Below, in pieces: positions 32,320 to 37,767 of a DNA stretch of 64,000 nt (position 1 is its first letter; each line of letters starts with the position of its first letter). The position numbers were made by a program, and so were the translations under genes. Location: NCBI GenBank assembly GCA_023664865.1, contig JAMPEU010000010.1, positions 1 to 64,000 on the forward strand. Reading direction: 5' to 3'. This stretch comes from Butyrivibrio sp. Lineage in GTDB: Bacteria; Bacillota; Clostridia; Lachnospirales; Lachnospiraceae. The notes beneath the pieces were generated by a model that worked only from the letters and a program-made list of their open reading frames with translations, was not told the DNA's origin and did not search any database.

Positions 32320-33645
32320 TTATTTTGGCAGCAAATGCAAGTATGCAGAAACAGAATCCGCCTGATGTTCAGAGCCTTCATATTCGTCCTCAGCCGGCAA
32401 AATCACATCAACGACATATCTGCCGCTGCTTTTATTATTCTCAATAATTCCGCCATATTTTCTTACAATGCCTTGCACGCTGTTTAACCCAATGCCATGC
32501 TTATTGCCTATCTGTTCCATGCTTTTTTCTATAGTCTTCCCCATGCCCCGCCTACTGTCATAGTCATTTTCAAGATGTATGACAATATGCCCGCCTTCTC
32601 TCGCCGTTTTCATACTAAGAAGAATCCCATCCTGTTTGCCGGCGCGTTTCTGCGCGTCTATGGCATTATCCAGTAAATTGCCTATAAGGGCTACAAGGTC
32701 AAGGTCTTCCATATTCCGAAAGCGCAAGGGTTCAATAACCTCTATATCCAGAGGGACGCAATTATCGTCAGCATATCCCTTTCTTTCCAGCAACAGTGCA
32801 TTCAACACCTTATTACTGCATATTATCCCCTTCTCTATATTGCCAATGCCAATTCTCATTTGAGCAATAATGCTGCCTATGTTTTCGCAATCCCCTTCTT
32901 CCGCCAACGCCGCCACTGCCCTCATTTGATGCCTCATATCATGTATAAATGTGTCATACTTTTCATGCAGTTCTTCCATATTCTGATAATACTCAGCAGT
33001 CTTTTCAAAATGAATGTTTATATTTTCAATTTCACGAGCTTTCATAATCGCCGCCCCAAATATCCAGTCCAAACAAACCATCGCCAAGACAGATATTATA
33101 AGCACAATCTCCGCTATAACAAAAGCGATGCCCATCCCGATACTCTTATCGAGTATGTCCTCCAAAATATAAAGACAGACAGCAAATCCGCATATGGCTG
33201 CCGAAATAAGCCCAAATATCAGGTCGTGTTCCCTTGAATAATTCATATTTATGGTAGAATTTTTCTTTGAAGCTGACAGTGACTTTACCAGATATAATAT
33301 AGCAATCAACAGAACGCTTTCCACCAAAAGCTCCAGCACGTCAATTGCGAAATGTCCCGACAGACATTCCACCGACAAGCAGATGGCATGATTAGCAATG
33401 GCATAGAAAAACAGCATTCCACGGTGTCCATTGAAAAGAATCATCGAAACAATAAGGCTGCATGCAATGCCCAATAACATGGAAAGCGTTGTGTTTTCCA
33501 TTCCGTTTAAAAAGCACCTGACAATAGAAACGAATAAAATAACGGCAGATATTATTTTATTGTTCAGTTGGCGATTGTTCACAAAGCCTTTTAACCATAT
33601 GTACAGAAACCCTGTCTCCAATAGAGCTGTCAATAACTTAAGCAT
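32320..33645 (-). CDS. AgrC-like GHKL sensor histidine kinase (kinase 1)
   Basis: 441 residues. About six membrane segments (1-200) are followed by a kinase core: H-box FIHDMRHQMR with His235, N-box GNLLDNAIDA and G-box NKHGIGLNSV. This is the HPK10 type that senses cyclic peptides. It is divergent from agrB with 277 bp between start codons, a region holding a LytTR-type direct repeat. AAGGGA lies about 10 nt before the ATG. It ends 40 nt before a terminator, so it is a single-gene unit. It is a natural candidate receptor for the peptide from agrD, but a second kinase at 34638-35942 competes for that role. Confidence 0.9.
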   Translation of the reverse strand: MLKLLTALLETGFLYIWLKGFVNNRQLNNKIISAVILFVSIVRCFLNGMENTTLSMLLGIACSLIVSMILFNGHRGMLFFYAIANHAICLSVECLSGHFAIDVLELLVESVLLIAILYLVKSLSASKKNSTINMNYSREHDLIFGLISAAICGFAVCLYILEDILDKSIGMGIAFVIAEIVLIISVLAMVCLDWIFGAAIMKAREIENINIHFEKTAEYYQNMEELHEKYDTFIHDMRHQMRAVAALAEEGDCENIGSIIAQMRIGIGNIEKGIICSNKVLNALLLERKGYADDNCVPLDIEVIEPLRFRNMEDLDLVALIGNLLDNAIDAQKRAGKQDGILLSMKTAREGGHIVIHLENDYDSRRGMGKTIEKSMEQIGNKHGIGLNSVQGIVRKYGGIIENNKSSGRYVVDVILPAEDEYEGSEHQADSVSAYLHLLPK

Positions 33646-33776: not shown

Positions 33777-33922
33777 TCGCTAAATGTAAAAATTAGCAAT
33801 TTTAGTCAGTTTTTTGGAAATTTTTTCCACTTGAGAGCGAAATTTGTCATTTAAAGCTCAAAAAACGATTGTTGGGTATTTTTGTATTAGAATTAAAAAA
33901 ACATAAGGAAGGGGGCGCTCAT

Positions 33923-34495
33923 ATGGATGCTATTTTGAATAAGGTGCAAAAAGAATATGGATATTCTGACTATGAGATTAAGTTGATAAAGTTTTCCATC
34001 ACTGGAATCTTTTATGATTTGAGTAAAACATTAATATTTCTGATTTATTTCTCCGCTGTCGGCAAGTTCATGGAATTTATCTTTGCCGCAGTGCCGCTTA
34101 TACTGTTGCGCACCAAGACAGGCGGAATACATTTAAAGAAATACTGGTCGTGTTTCATGTTCTCGCTTATCTATTTCTTTGCAGTTATATATGCACTGCC
34201 TACATTAATAACAGTACATCCTCTGGTGGTGTATTTAATCTTATTAATATGTGCAGTTATGGATTATATGCTCGGTCCCAACACATTGAGCAAAAGACCT
34301 GCTCCGGCGGAAGATTTTATTAAGAAAGCAAAGATACAAAGCTTTCAAGTAATTTTCATTGTCGCAATACTGTTTTTTATCTTTCCTGATGTTCCTTATC
34401 TTATTGTTAGTTTTTGGACTGTCGTATTGCATACGGTTCAATTGTCTATAGCAAAATTATTAAAGGAGGTGAAACATCATGAAGAATTGGCTTAA
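33923..34495 (+). CDS. agrB: AgrB-family autoinducer peptide processing protease
   Basis: 190 residues from ATG 33923, 7 nt after AAGGAAGGGGG. About five to six membrane segments. The catalytic pair is His70 and Cys77 in GGIHLKKYWSC, with the same His-x6-Cys spacing as staphylococcal AgrB. A basic, proline-containing loop (LSKRPAPAEDF) follows, also typical. AgrB cuts the C-terminal tail from AgrD in the membrane and closes the (thio)lactone ring. Its last 17 nt overlap agrD. It lies between two GHKL kinases on the opposite strand. Confidence 0.93.
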   Translation: MDAILNKVQKEYGYSDYEIKLIKFSITGIFYDLSKTLIFLIYFSAVGKFMEFIFAAVPLILLRTKTGGIHLKKYWSCFMFSLIYFFAVIYALPTLITVHPLVVYLILLICAVMDYMLGPNTLSKRPAPAEDFIKKAKIQSFQVIFIVAILFFIFPDVPYLIVSFWTVVLHTVQLSIAKLLKEVKHHEELA

Positions 34496-34607
34496 GAGGA
34501 ATATGCCTACTATTTGTAGTCTTTGTCTTGGATATACAGTATGGTATCGTATTAGTTCATACAGTTTTGTTCTTTTTGGGGAGCCAGATTTCCCAGTTGA
34601 GGACTAA
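34479..34607 (+). CDS. agrD: AgrD-like cyclic lactone autoinducer precursor (42 residues)
   Basis: Short gene overlapping agrB by 17 nt, with a strong AAAGGAGGTG 8 nt before ATG 34479 and stop at 34605-34607. Residues 1-23 form a basic, hydrophobic leader (MKNWLKRNMP...). The tail GEPDFPVED (34-42) has the acidic, two-proline pattern of AgrD tails. Aligning that tail with Listeria-type precursors puts the AgrB cut before Gly34, so the five-residue ring would be Ser29-Phe-Val-Leu-Phe33. Ser at the ring position means a lactone rather than the commoner Cys thiolactone; the two Cys residues (13, 16) lie in the leader. A terminator follows at once. The family call rests on size, position and tail. 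Ring boundaries are inferred. Confidence 0.87.
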   Translation: MKNWLKRNMPTICSLCLGYTVWYRISSYSFVLFGEPDFPVED

Positions 34608-34618
34608 ACAGACCTCCC

Positions 34619-34661
34619 AAAGAGACAGGAATCTTCTTTATGGTTTCTGTCTCTTTATTTT
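34619..34661 (+). terminator. Terminator of agrBD
   Basis: Perfect 10-bp stem AAAGAGACAG / CTGTCTCTTT (34619-34628 with 34647-34656) followed by ATTTT, 12 nt after the agrD stop. It overlaps the 3' end of the convergent kinase gene. Confidence 0.8.
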
Positions 34662-35942
34662 AGGTATTAATACCGTAAAGGCAAGATAATTCTCGCCACC
34701 GCGCTTTTCATTGCTTACGATTATATTTCCATTTTTCTCATGCACCAACCGTTTCAATTTAGACAGACCGATTCCTCGCCCTTTTCCTTTGCTGCTGTAT
34801 CCATTCTCAAAGAAACGCTCCGTCATATCTTCCTCATAATATGCGCTAGCATTTGCCACAACCAGTTCTATATATTCTTCCACATCTTTTATGGAGAAAA
34901 ATATTTTTCTGATAATGCCACCGTCTTCTGTATCAAAGTTATTCAGCGCCTCTATGGCGTTGTCAGTCAAAATACCCAACATTTCTACCAGTTCATATTC
35001 CGGTATAGTTAAGGATTCTTTCTTAATCTCAATTTCATACTCTACTTCAATTCTTTTGCCTTCCGCTTCTTGTATCTTACTGTACATAAAGCCTGCAATC
35101 AGTGGATTCCCTGATGCAAGCACCAGTTTTGTCTTTTCATTTTGTTCAATTACATATCCGCAATATTCCTGCTGTTTCTCTGCCAGTTCTTCATAATTAT
35201 CCGTAGTGTATATCATACTTAAGATAGCATTAATATGATTCTTCATATCATGCTGACGCTCCCTGACAAGCATAATCAAATTATCATACGCGCCATAATA
35301 TAGATTATTCATTTCCAGCTGCGCTTTTCTTTTTTCTGCTTCGACTCTGGATTTCTGCCACTCATATATGATAAATAAAAATATTAATATGAAATATACC
35401 ATTTGAATATATAATTCTTTTAATATTGCGCCTTCCCCTTTCATTTTATAAAAATTCATACCTAATCCAAAAAATACAAGAATTGTAACTCCTGCAATTA
35501 TCTTGTCTCTTTTGATGAAAAAGTCAGATAATCTCTTTAGATTCACTTTATAACTGAGTAAAATAATAATTATAAAGCAACCCATATTAATTAGCAGTTC
35601 ATTTATGTAACCTTGTTTATAGTTCCTATAAAATATGCAATACAACGGCAAAAATACTAGTAATTGAAAAATCGCAACCGTTATATAAGCAAGAGAACAA
35701 TTTACCAACGTAAGTTTTACACTTTCAGCATAATATATTAATCCATACAAAAACATTCCAATGTAAATTAATGAACCCAAGTACCTAGGAAATCCATAGT
35801 TATCAATACCAACTATCAAAAATAATACAGCTATGACCAACACAACAGCGTGAATACTAATTTTCAGCTTCTTCCCAAACAATTCAGCCAGACAATATAA
35901 ATATGCAAATAGCTCTATAAGATTTTTAATATTCCTAATCAT
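34638..35942 (-). CDS. GHKL sensor histidine kinase (kinase 2), AgrC-like
   Basis: 434 residues with about six membrane segments (1-195), a coiled linker and a GHKL kinase: H-box RQHDMKNHINAI with His231, N-box GILTDNAIEAL, G-box GKGRGIGLSKLK. Its coding sequence looks more AT-rich than its neighbours, especially in the membrane part. It is convergent with agrBD, whose terminator overlaps its last codons. Upstream come a 149-bp palindrome and a tandem repeat, then the two LytTR regulators on the same strand. A regulator-regulator-kinase unit is therefore likely, with the repeats as an insertion or leader. Ligand unknown; the AgrD peptide is the obvious candidate. Confidence 0.9.
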   Translation of the reverse strand: MIRNIKNLIELFAYLYCLAELFGKKLKISIHAVVLVIAVLFLIVGIDNYGFPRYLGSLIYIGMFLYGLIYYAESVKLTLVNCSLAYITVAIFQLLVFLPLYCIFYRNYKQGYINELLINMGCFIIIILLSYKVNLKRLSDFFIKRDKIIAGVTILVFFGLGMNFYKMKGEGAILKELYIQMVYFILIFLFIIYEWQKSRVEAEKRKAQLEMNNLYYGAYDNLIMLVRERQHDMKNHINAILSMIYTTDNYEELAEKQQEYCGYVIEQNEKTKLVLASGNPLIAGFMYSKIQEAEGKRIEVEYEIEIKKESLTIPEYELVEMLGILTDNAIEALNNFDTEDGGIIRKIFFSIKDVEEYIELVVANASAYYEEDMTERFFENGYSSKGKGRGIGLSKLKRLVHEKNGNIIVSNEKRGGENYLAFTVLIPKIKRQKP

Positions 35943-36280: not shown

Positions 36281-37009
36281 TCAGCCGCTAATCATCATAT
36301 GTTTCAGCAACTTCTGCTTAAATGTATTGCCAAATTCAATCAGTTCTTTTACATCCCTAAGTTGCACATACCTGTTGACAACATCAACCTTATCTATGTA
36401 ATCCACGTTTATTATATGATACCTGCTGCATTGTACGAACCTGTCAGAACCCAGTTCCTGCAATATTTTCTTATTGGCTTTATAAGGCAGGCTAAGATTC
36501 CCATTAGTACAGTGAACAATCTGTCCCGCCCTGCTGTTCTCTATGTAGATAATATCAGAGATTTCCTTCTTATACAGAATCCCATCCTTGCGGAAGAAGA
36601 TGCTCTGAGACGTATTATCATTTACCGGAAAGTCGAGCGCCTCAGCAATCACCTCGGATACCTTCTGCACGTCATACGGTTTCTCAACATAATAATAACA
36701 ATGAAGGTCACTGTAGGCATATAATTCAGGGTCTTCTAACGCAGTAGTAAATATTATAGGCGTATACTTATATTTCTGGAATGTACGAAGGTATTTGGCA
36801 AAACTCATTCCTGATACGTCGCTGGGATTGGCAGTGTCTAAGACAATATCCAGCATAAACAAGTCAATATTGTTTTTAACTGCCAGAAGCGTCGCCTCTT
36901 CCTCGTTAGAAGCTGTTTTTATTTCCACATCATTTCTAACATTCTCTATTATCTTGACAAGCATATCCCTGCTTCTAATGTTATCTTCTACGATAAGAAC
37001 CGTTTTCAT
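36281..37009 (-). CDS. LytTR-family response regulator 1 (AgrA-like)
   Basis: 242 residues. The receiver domain (1 to about 120) has the acidic pair at 8-9, phospho-acceptor Asp54 in LFMLDIVLD, and VEKPY with the conserved Lys. The LytTR DNA-binding domain (about 138-242) contains FRKDGILYKKEISDIIYIE and the CSRYHIINVDYI block. LytTR regulators bind 9-bp direct repeats about 21-22 bp apart; one such site lies at 33747-33776. GGGAAGAG precedes the ATG. It follows regulator 2 by 23 nt, so the two are co-transcribed. Likely partner of one of the two GHKL kinases. Confidence 0.92.
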   Translation of the reverse strand: MKTVLIVEDNIRSRDMLVKIIENVRNDVEIKTASNEEEATLLAVKNNIDLFMLDIVLDTANPSDVSGMSFAKYLRTFQKYKYTPIIFTTALEDPELYAYSDLHCYYYVEKPYDVQKVSEVIAEALDFPVNDNTSQSIFFRKDGILYKKEISDIIYIENSRAGQIVHCTNGNLSLPYKANKKILQELGSDRFVQCSRYHIINVDYIDKVDVVNRYVQLRDVKELIEFGNTFKQKLLKHMMISG

Positions 37010-37032: not shown

Positions 37033-37767
37033 TTATAAAATGTATCTTACGCAGGCTGCCCTGAATGATTTCTCCTTCGACCTGCTTATGCTTAAGCGCG
37101 TGCCGTTTTTCAACTCAAGTTCATGGGTATCCCATTGTTTCAAGTAATGGCAGTTTACCAGATAACTGTTATGTGGAAAGGCAAAGCCAAACACGCATAA
37201 CTGCTCATACAGTTCTTTAGTCTTTTCTTTGACATTGATAACCGACACTTCATCAGGCACATCATAATAGTGGATATTGCTTCCATTCTTGGCAATTTCT
37301 ATATAAAGAATCTTGTCCACGTCAATGGGCATCATAGTTTTGCCTCTGGTAACCATAATCCGATTTTTCTCACAGCGTCTGTACATCTCCTGCACCGTTT
37401 CCAGCAGGCTTTTTCTCAGTTCTCGTTTCTGCTCTTTACGCACATACCGATAAGGCGTACATTTAAAGTCTGATGTCTTCGGTAAAGTTTTATCCGTACA
37501 AAATACCAACAGCCCATCTTTATTTAACTTCCTATACTCCTTGGCAATTTCCCTTCCGCTTTTACCCGGCAGCATAATATCCATTATAACCAGATTATAT
37601 CTGCTCACGCTTGCCTTGAGCAAATCCTCGCCATTGTTAAACATGGATATCTTAAAGTCTCCCTGTTTTAGTTCGCCCTCAAGCAGAATGTCCCTTATCT
37701 CTCGTGCGCTCTTCCTTTCATCATCGCAAATTGCAATCCATAATAATTCTTCGCCTGTGTAATACAT
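37033..37767 (-). CDS. LytTR-family response regulator 2 (AgrA-like)
   Basis: 244 residues. Receiver with the acidic pair in ICDDE (13-17), Asp63 in LVIMDIMLPG and FCTDKTLPKTS; then a LytTR domain with MVTRGKTMMPIDVDKILYIE and FPHNSYLVNCHYLKQWD. It is closer in style to the single-domain-linker regulators of peptide systems than regulator 1, and the two are not near-identical. GAGGGCGGAG precedes the ATG. It is the first gene of the regulator-regulator unit; upstream lies an 8-bp inverted repeat and then the divergent XRE gene. Two regulators with two kinases suggests either two parallel pathways or cross-talk around one AgrD signal. Confidence 0.92.
   Translation of the reverse strand: MYYTGEELLWIAICDDERKSAREIRDILLEGELKQGDFKISMFNNGEDLLKASVSRYNLVIMDIMLPGKSGREIAKEYRKLNKDGLLVFCTDKTLPKTSDFKCTPYRYVRKEQKRELRKSLLETVQEMYRRCEKNRIMVTRGKTMMPIDVDKILYIEIAKNGSNIHYYDVPDEVSVINVKEKTKELYEQLCVFGFAFPHNSYLVNCHYLKQWDTHELELKNGTRLSISRSKEKSFRAACVRYIL

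Follow-up and report, generated by a model that had tools for sequence, protein, structure and literature searches.

The window analysed here, a stretch of 64,000 nucleotides from a Butyrivibrio sp. contig (JAMPEU010000010.1), contains a small overlooked gene whose sequence indicates that it most likely encodes a ring-shaped signal peptide closed through a serine rather than the usual cysteine. We consider it very probable, from the sequence of the locus and its relatives, that this gene and agrB form an agrBD quorum-sensing module in which the precursor would give a serine-lactone AIP, sensed by the kinase that we call HK2 and relayed by the response regulator RR1. The relatives of the gene suggest in addition that serine is the normal choice within the branch of AgrB proteins to which the AgrB of the window belongs.

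A 42-codon agrD gene overlaps the end of agrB

The features of the agrBD pair are as follows.

33923..34495, plus strand: agrB, encoding a membrane peptidase predicted to cut and cyclise AgrD (PF04647, E = 1.2e-27)
34462..34471, plus strand: ribosome binding site AAAGGAGGTG, read from the sequence
34479..34607, plus strand: agrD-type signal precursor gene of 42 codons, with its ATG at 34479
34563..34577, plus strand: predicted five-residue ring Ser29-Phe-Val-Leu-Phe33, closed through Ser29
34578..34604, plus strand: C-terminal tail GEPDFPVED, which AgrB is predicted to cut off

The agrD reading frame translates as MKNWLKRNMPTICSLCLGYTVWYRISSYSFVLFGEPDFPVED followed by a stop, and its leader appears by eye to be both basic and hydrophobic. 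A short reading frame adjoining an AgrB gene is one mark of the AgrD class, and here the start codon lies inside the 3' end of agrB, giving an overlap of 17 nucleotides that recurs in all 17 close loci (the window included). Seventeen of the 20 AgrD matches found in a search of the genus, again counting the window, are 42-codon genes with the same -17 offset and an RBS; the other three (L089 to L091) are related, more distant, and start at -20. Comparison of the window agrD with the copy on contig C7 of its own genome gave 14 synonymous and 8 nonsynonymous differences (pS 0.58, pN 0.08), and pairwise coding constraint was clear in six of the seven pairs tested and weak in one (L078/L086; pS 0.44, pN 0.31). 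A chance reading frame was rejected on the basis of the constant offset, the RBS and the coding constraint. The gene is real in the form originally predicted, as a 42-codon agrD with an RBS, overlapping agrB.

The original prediction had also called the gene unlisted, and this is plausible because no Pfam or NCBIfam model matched the window peptide at E values of up to 1. The quorum_AgrD model TIGR04223 (cut-off, 19 bits) was among those that gave no match; none of seven precursors of the window type exceeded its cut-off (best, 16.9 bits, in L048) versus three of the three QP-type precursors tested, QP being the second AgrD type described below.

The C7 copy (L092) lies on a contig of 4653 bp and is 95% identical to the window locus in UDP-glucose dehydrogenase, 66% in HK1 and 86% in AgrD. 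Instead of being a true second copy, it may belong to a related strain present in the assembly, for which contamination is 5.11%.

A profile built from five sequences, that of the window among them, matched AgrD in at least 19 of the 77 genomes searched within the genus (20 hits), at least 8 of 397 genomes in a family sample (with two hits spanning only positions 9 to 32), at least 2 of 295 in an order sample and at least 2 of 299 in a phylum sample, the window's own genome being included in each count. No AgrD-like reading frame was found for the second match in the phylum sample (L154), nor for L041 or L042 (both matching at positions 9 to 32 only), and all three were dropped. The genome searches score a capped number of candidates in many genomes and so may miss members; within that scope, and among the matches listed, this AgrD type is patchily distributed in a single bacterial family, probably the Lachnospiraceae.

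The predicted ring-closing position is nearly always serine or cysteine

We gathered the AgrDs that accompany further AgrBs from the genus and the family and pooled them to 48 distinct precursors, the window included. At position -5 from the predicted cut, 40 have Ser, 7 have Cys and 1 has Pro, while the neighboring columns are free, with 12 kinds of residue at -6 and 11 at -4. At the cut, the 48 precursors share a motif in which F, L or I precedes G-E or G-D (E-E in one case). A Cys or Ser placed to act as ring nucleophile, at constant spacing ahead of a conserved cut motif, is a further mark of the AgrD class, and 47 of 48 have Ser or Cys at -5. Among the 17 close loci, no change is seen at F33, G34, E35, P36 or P39; position 29 holds Ser in 15 loci and Cys in the remaining 2 (L083 and L087); and positions 26 to 28 and 30 are variable, with nine kinds of residue at 28 and six at 30. 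Alternation of Ser and Cys at -5, between two free columns, is the behavior expected of a ring-closing residue. The codons at this position, read in 42 genes, are AGY for 33 of 34 serines and TGY for all seven cysteines (Ser29 itself is AGT, at 34563-34565, and Gly34 starts at 34578). The simplest account of the alignment is that the -5 residue would act as the nucleophile in ring closure, with a single base change converting Ser to Cys or back.

The homologues thus support the predicted start of the ring at Ser29, the cut before Gly34 and the ring size of five. The prediction had been made to depend on conservation of Ser29, and the two departures among the 17 close loci, both to Cys, support the ring reading because Cys is also able to close such a ring; the wider set of 48 adds the one Pro. 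The statement that serine lactones are less common stands for the known AIPs and fails for this branch, in which Ser is the majority. The sole Pro, in L070 (G155:C170), occurs in the sequence NTHCPFIII-GEP, which has Cys at -6 and perhaps forms a six-residue Cys ring, and L037, L039 and L145 have Cys one or two residues before the Ser. Ring size may therefore differ in some relatives.

A larger ring, closed through Ser26, Ser27 or the leader residues Cys13 or Cys16, could be drawn for the window peptide, which has all four residues. We regard this as very improbable, since across the 17 close loci position 26 is Gly in 9, Ser in 6, Thr in 1 and Phe in 1 and position 27 is Ser in 9, Gly in 4, Thr in 2, Glu in 1 and Ala in 1, whereas position 29 is only ever Ser or Cys; moreover, Cys13 is unconserved among five aligned rows, and L086 has Ile at position 16. 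Ring residues other than the one at -5 were rejected on this column makeup.

The first extraction of precursors had required a C, S or T near the cut, a filter that could favor a Ser/Cys result, and for that reason it was repeated with no demand on the residue. The same picture emerged: one Ser precursor (L045) was gained, one spurious match (L050) was dropped, and 3 of the 41 earlier precursors (L036, L046 and L057) were missed by the narrower motif. L052 and L070 were manual additions to the first set, and L152 came from a separate, wider search. Five further precursors, read by their position after agrB, all have Ser, one of them within a fused reading frame. Of the 98 distinct AgrBs in the first extraction, 25 contributed no AgrD to the counts. 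Among these 25, L063 (at a contig end), L064, L065 and L067 lean to the window type by HMM score and were left uncounted; L067 could be read as having Cys at -6 followed by Ser at -5, and this reading was likewise uncounted. In L065, similar translations occur upstream and downstream of AgrB, seemingly from the same short stretch on both sides, which is perhaps a repeat or the edge of a mobile element.

AgrB proteins of the window type form their own branch

The AgrB of the window scores 96.9 bits against PF04647 (gathering cut-off, 23) and has the catalytic His and Cys expected of the family, a dyad (His70 and Cys77) retained in all 67 aligned AgrBs. A search by sequence for a solved AgrB relative found none. 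In a quick tree of the 67 proteins, 42 of the window type were separated by a starred branch (99) from 25 AgrBs that accompany a Cys-type "QP" AgrD, and the residues K35, W165 and Q173 mark the window type (42, 41 and 41 of 42, respectively). QP-type AgrDs (the TIGR04223 type) occur in the same bacteria and resemble the window type in having an AgrB partner, a short precursor and a ring before a proline-containing tail but differ from it in the AgrB branch, in exceeding the TIGR04223 cut-off (in the three tested) and in having Cys in all 26 counted, a figure partly built into their definition. The QP set was initially defined by Cys, and a new search with no such demand yielded L114, which has Cys, and one doubtful reading frame (L129).

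When the ring residue was placed on the AgrB tree (with the Pro case scored as Cys), eight Ser/Cys changes were counted overall, seven of them within the window type, and the starred branches by themselves force at least five changes of the Ser label across the whole tree. The tree, from which one fragment (L135) was left out, has several long branches and is unrooted, and hence it gives no direction to the changes. We see an even chance, judging from these sequences, that this AgrB branch is two-handed, accepting Ser or Cys with Ser as the default, and that AGY-TGY exchanges of a single base have switched lactone and thiolactone signals about seven times, possibly as a fast route to changing or insulating the signaling dialect. 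In PMC10482373, S. aureus AgrB1 and AgrB2 are reported to be unable to process a Ser AgrD, and acceptance of Ser by the AgrB of the window is for that reason an assumption on our part.

It could be supposed that AgrB closes no ring and that a linear hydrophobic peptide, or a dead remnant, is all that results, as the window peptide matches no curated AgrD model. The intact dyad in every aligned AgrB, the Ser or Cys at -5 in all but one precursor, the coding constraint on agrD in most of the pairs and the retention of a receptor-type kinase nearby argue against such a product, to which we attach hardly any probability.

Several related loci have unusual architectures. In L005 (1016-3043) and L021 (1501-3521), AgrB continues, within a single long ORF, into a von Willebrand factor A domain (PF00092/PF13519) at the C terminus; L009 has a long ORF similar to these two, which were the ones covered by the domain scan, and a Cys-type YQP AgrD lies upstream in all three. 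L151 (4426-5010), near a contig end, appears to be an AgrB-AgrD fusion in which AgrB is without its last part and the tail reads SIIFF-GEPEYP. The window's own genome contains a fourth AgrB (L004, contig C129, 1432-2027), which is shortened in its N-terminal half but retains the His and Cys; the AgrD downstream of it contains SIFLF-GEYPYP. In another AgrB branch, L150 (4344-4493, minus strand) encodes an AgrD-like peptide with NSISRFDAYEPEED, which is possibly an independent Ser ring (SRFDA).

A convergent AgrC-like kinase is the probable receptor

Four regulatory genes flank agrBD.

32320..33645, minus strand: HK1, a second GHKL kinase, divergent from agrB, a possible extra receptor
34638..35942, minus strand: HK2, the probable receptor kinase, AgrC-like, with a GHKL domain
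36281..37009, minus strand: RR1, a probable AgrA-like LytTR response regulator with Response_reg and LytTR domains
37033..37767, minus strand: RR2, a second LytTR response regulator by domain match, with relatives in several close loci

We looked at 47 loci besides the window, 36 with long flanks (21 + 15) and 11 with short flanks. An HK2-like kinase is present near agrBD in 33 of the former and 9 of the latter, or 42 of 47 (the match in L073 is weak, at 63 bits), and is convergent in 41 of these 42, being co-directional in L140. One ORF lies between agrBD and the kinase in L100, L101 and L102, and in L146 the kinase is split into two ORFs. The five loci in which it is missing are L107, L108 and L151 (the last two at contig ends) and L004 and L070, which have little flanking DNA. 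An RR1-like regulator accompanies the kinase in 27 of 33 long-flank loci; of the six misses, four are due to contig ends and two (L097 and L098) are real. Thus, a membrane GHKL kinase and a LytTR regulator, the makeup of an AgrC-AgrA pair, are linked to agrBD.

By sequence, the solved structure closest to HK2 is that of the kinase module of S. aureus AgrC (4bxi; E = 4.7e-10). Among NCBIfam models, HK2 scores highest with a DcuS/MalK kinase model (79.6 bits) and reaches 49.7 bits with the staphylococcal AgrC model NF046015, both far below cut-off. Because the latter score falls short of the cut-off of 500, we class HK2 only as AgrC-like. The putative sensor and kinase parts of HK2 differ in conservation: no change is seen at H231 or the residues around it in any of 16 sequences, and between the window and L034, a locus from a Clostridiales MAG, identity is 50 to 75% over residues 1 to 200 versus 92 to 95% over residues 201 to 280. 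Against the C7 copy, the contrast is weaker (68 to 90% versus 95%). Such a contrast would be expected if a receptor tracks a changing ligand, and the gene neighborhood and sequence matches make HK2 the likely receptor.

Alternatively, HK1 may be the receptor in place of HK2, or both may listen, since HK1 is also a GHKL kinase, is predicted to cross the membrane several times and varies strongly in its sensor part. Counting the window, 16 of the 17 close loci have an HK1 relative next to agrB (often shorter or with a partial match); the L098 locus is truncated at a contig end. However, an HK1-like kinase is rare elsewhere, being present in 1 of 15 wider loci (L137, beside another AgrB) versus 14 with an HK2-like kinase, and HK1 scores 19.8 bits with the AgrC model versus 49.7 for HK2, both under the cut-off. 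We rate a receptor role for HK1 as rather unlikely and retain HK2 as the probable receptor.

Upstream repeats and neighboring genes

Two further elements lie on either side of agrBD.

33796..33848, plus strand: three imperfect direct repeats (33796-33807, 33816-33827 and 33837-33848), possible LytTR binding sites, with a consensus derived by eye from the same sequences
34619..34656, no strand assigned: terminator-like hairpin between agrD and HK2, read from the sequence by eye, with a 10-bp stem, AAAGAGACAG / CTGTCTCTTT

LytTR regulators often bind such repeats, and autoregulation of agrB through a LytTR regulator is therefore likely. The repeats, spaced by ~21 bp, are kept upstream of agrB in five close loci, and the score of three copies at this spacing was reached by none of 200 dinucleotide shuffles in each of these five sequences, from which the consensus was itself derived. 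In the window, a lag of 30 ties with that of 21, and the C7 copy is strongest at a lag of 10. No 9-base word is common to all 17 close loci, the best being present in 5.

The agr locus lies amid polysaccharide genes (window positions 28322-48530), including those for a UDP-glucose dehydrogenase, an epimerase, a Wzy-type ligase and a glycosyltransferase; of 10 neighboring ORFs scanned, 4 are polysaccharide genes, 5 had no match and 1 encodes a DUF protein. A UDP-glucose dehydrogenase gene is found near the agr locus in 13 of the 17 close loci, including the window, and the polysaccharide genes are a possible target of the agr system. The window contains no tRNA and no Rfam match at the gathering score. 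Nine matches to CPBP proteases were found in the genome, none on the contig of the window.

Proposed pathway

From the gene and its neighbors, the AgrB dyad, the Ser/Cys column and the tail, we infer the cut, the lactone bond, the export, the receptor and the feedback as follows. AgrB would cleave AgrD after Phe33, and the hydroxyl of Ser29 would accept the acyl group from the AgrB cysteine, giving the five-residue lactone Ser-Phe-Val-Leu-Phe. A second protease would then detach the leader, leaving a signal that probably carries a short tail with Tyr28 as its last residue. The calculated masses are 594.3286 for [SFVLF], 757.3919 for Y[SFVLF], 844.4240 for SY[SFVLF] and 931.4560 for SSY[SFVLF], each linear form being heavier by 18.01. 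The exported peptide would be sensed by HK2, which would signal through the adjoining RR1, and RR1 would probably feed back on the agrB promoter.

The lactone might instead be only an intermediate: were the leader cut exactly before Ser29, an O-to-N acyl shift would produce the all-amide cyclo(SFVLF). According to PMC11297923, pentameric thiolactones that lack an exotail convert to homodetic peptides, and a compound in that paper, which we read as the lactone analogue, had undergone 48% O-to-N rearrangement after 22 h (37°C, pH 7). Nevertheless, nothing in the sequence points to cleavage directly before Ser29, and we leave the all-amide ring a small chance, with the lactone as the preferred product.

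Relation to known systems and significance

Serine lactones are a known kind of signal, as Ser rings have been recorded in S. pseudintermedius, C. difficile and E. faecalis. A 2025 primer (PMC12312760) lists RIPT[STGFF] of S. pseudintermedius and NSA[SSWVA] of C. difficile agr2 as five-residue Ser rings and also presents E. faecalis GBAP as a Ser ring. The peptide of S. pseudintermedius and S. intermedius is, like that predicted here, a five-residue Ser lactone with a closing Phe (PMC12312760 and PMC3673130), but it appears in the same primer and in PMC10482373 as an exception among staphylococci, whereas here Ser is the majority in an AgrB branch (40/48). The C. difficile signal shares the five-residue Ser ring and comes from a clostridial agrB2D2C2A2 locus (PMC12312760), with a different ring sequence. 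GBAP (Fsr) is a serine lactone from an agr-like locus but has a nine-residue ring and the gene order fsrBDCA. The S. aureus AgrBDCA system has in common with the window the AgrB enzyme, a five-residue ring, removal of the tail, an AgrC-like GHKL kinase and a LytTR regulator. It differs in its Cys thiolactone and its single agrBDCA operon, whereas in the window HK2 and RR1 form a convergent unit and AgrD falls outside the curated models tested.

A search of open-access titles and abstracts, with subscription papers and preprints outside its scope, found no Ser-ring AgrD described as the rule in a branch of Clostridia. As far as the literature searched shows, what is new is a lineage with serine as the default, mixed with Cys forms and unseen by TIGR04223. 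If this reading is true, serine signals are the rule in one Agr branch and have been missed by that model, and chemistry that traps thiolactones would, we infer, miss them too. Since Ser and Cys forms are near neighbors on a single AgrB tree, they would provide natural pairs with which to ask what lets AgrB use an alcohol or a thiol.
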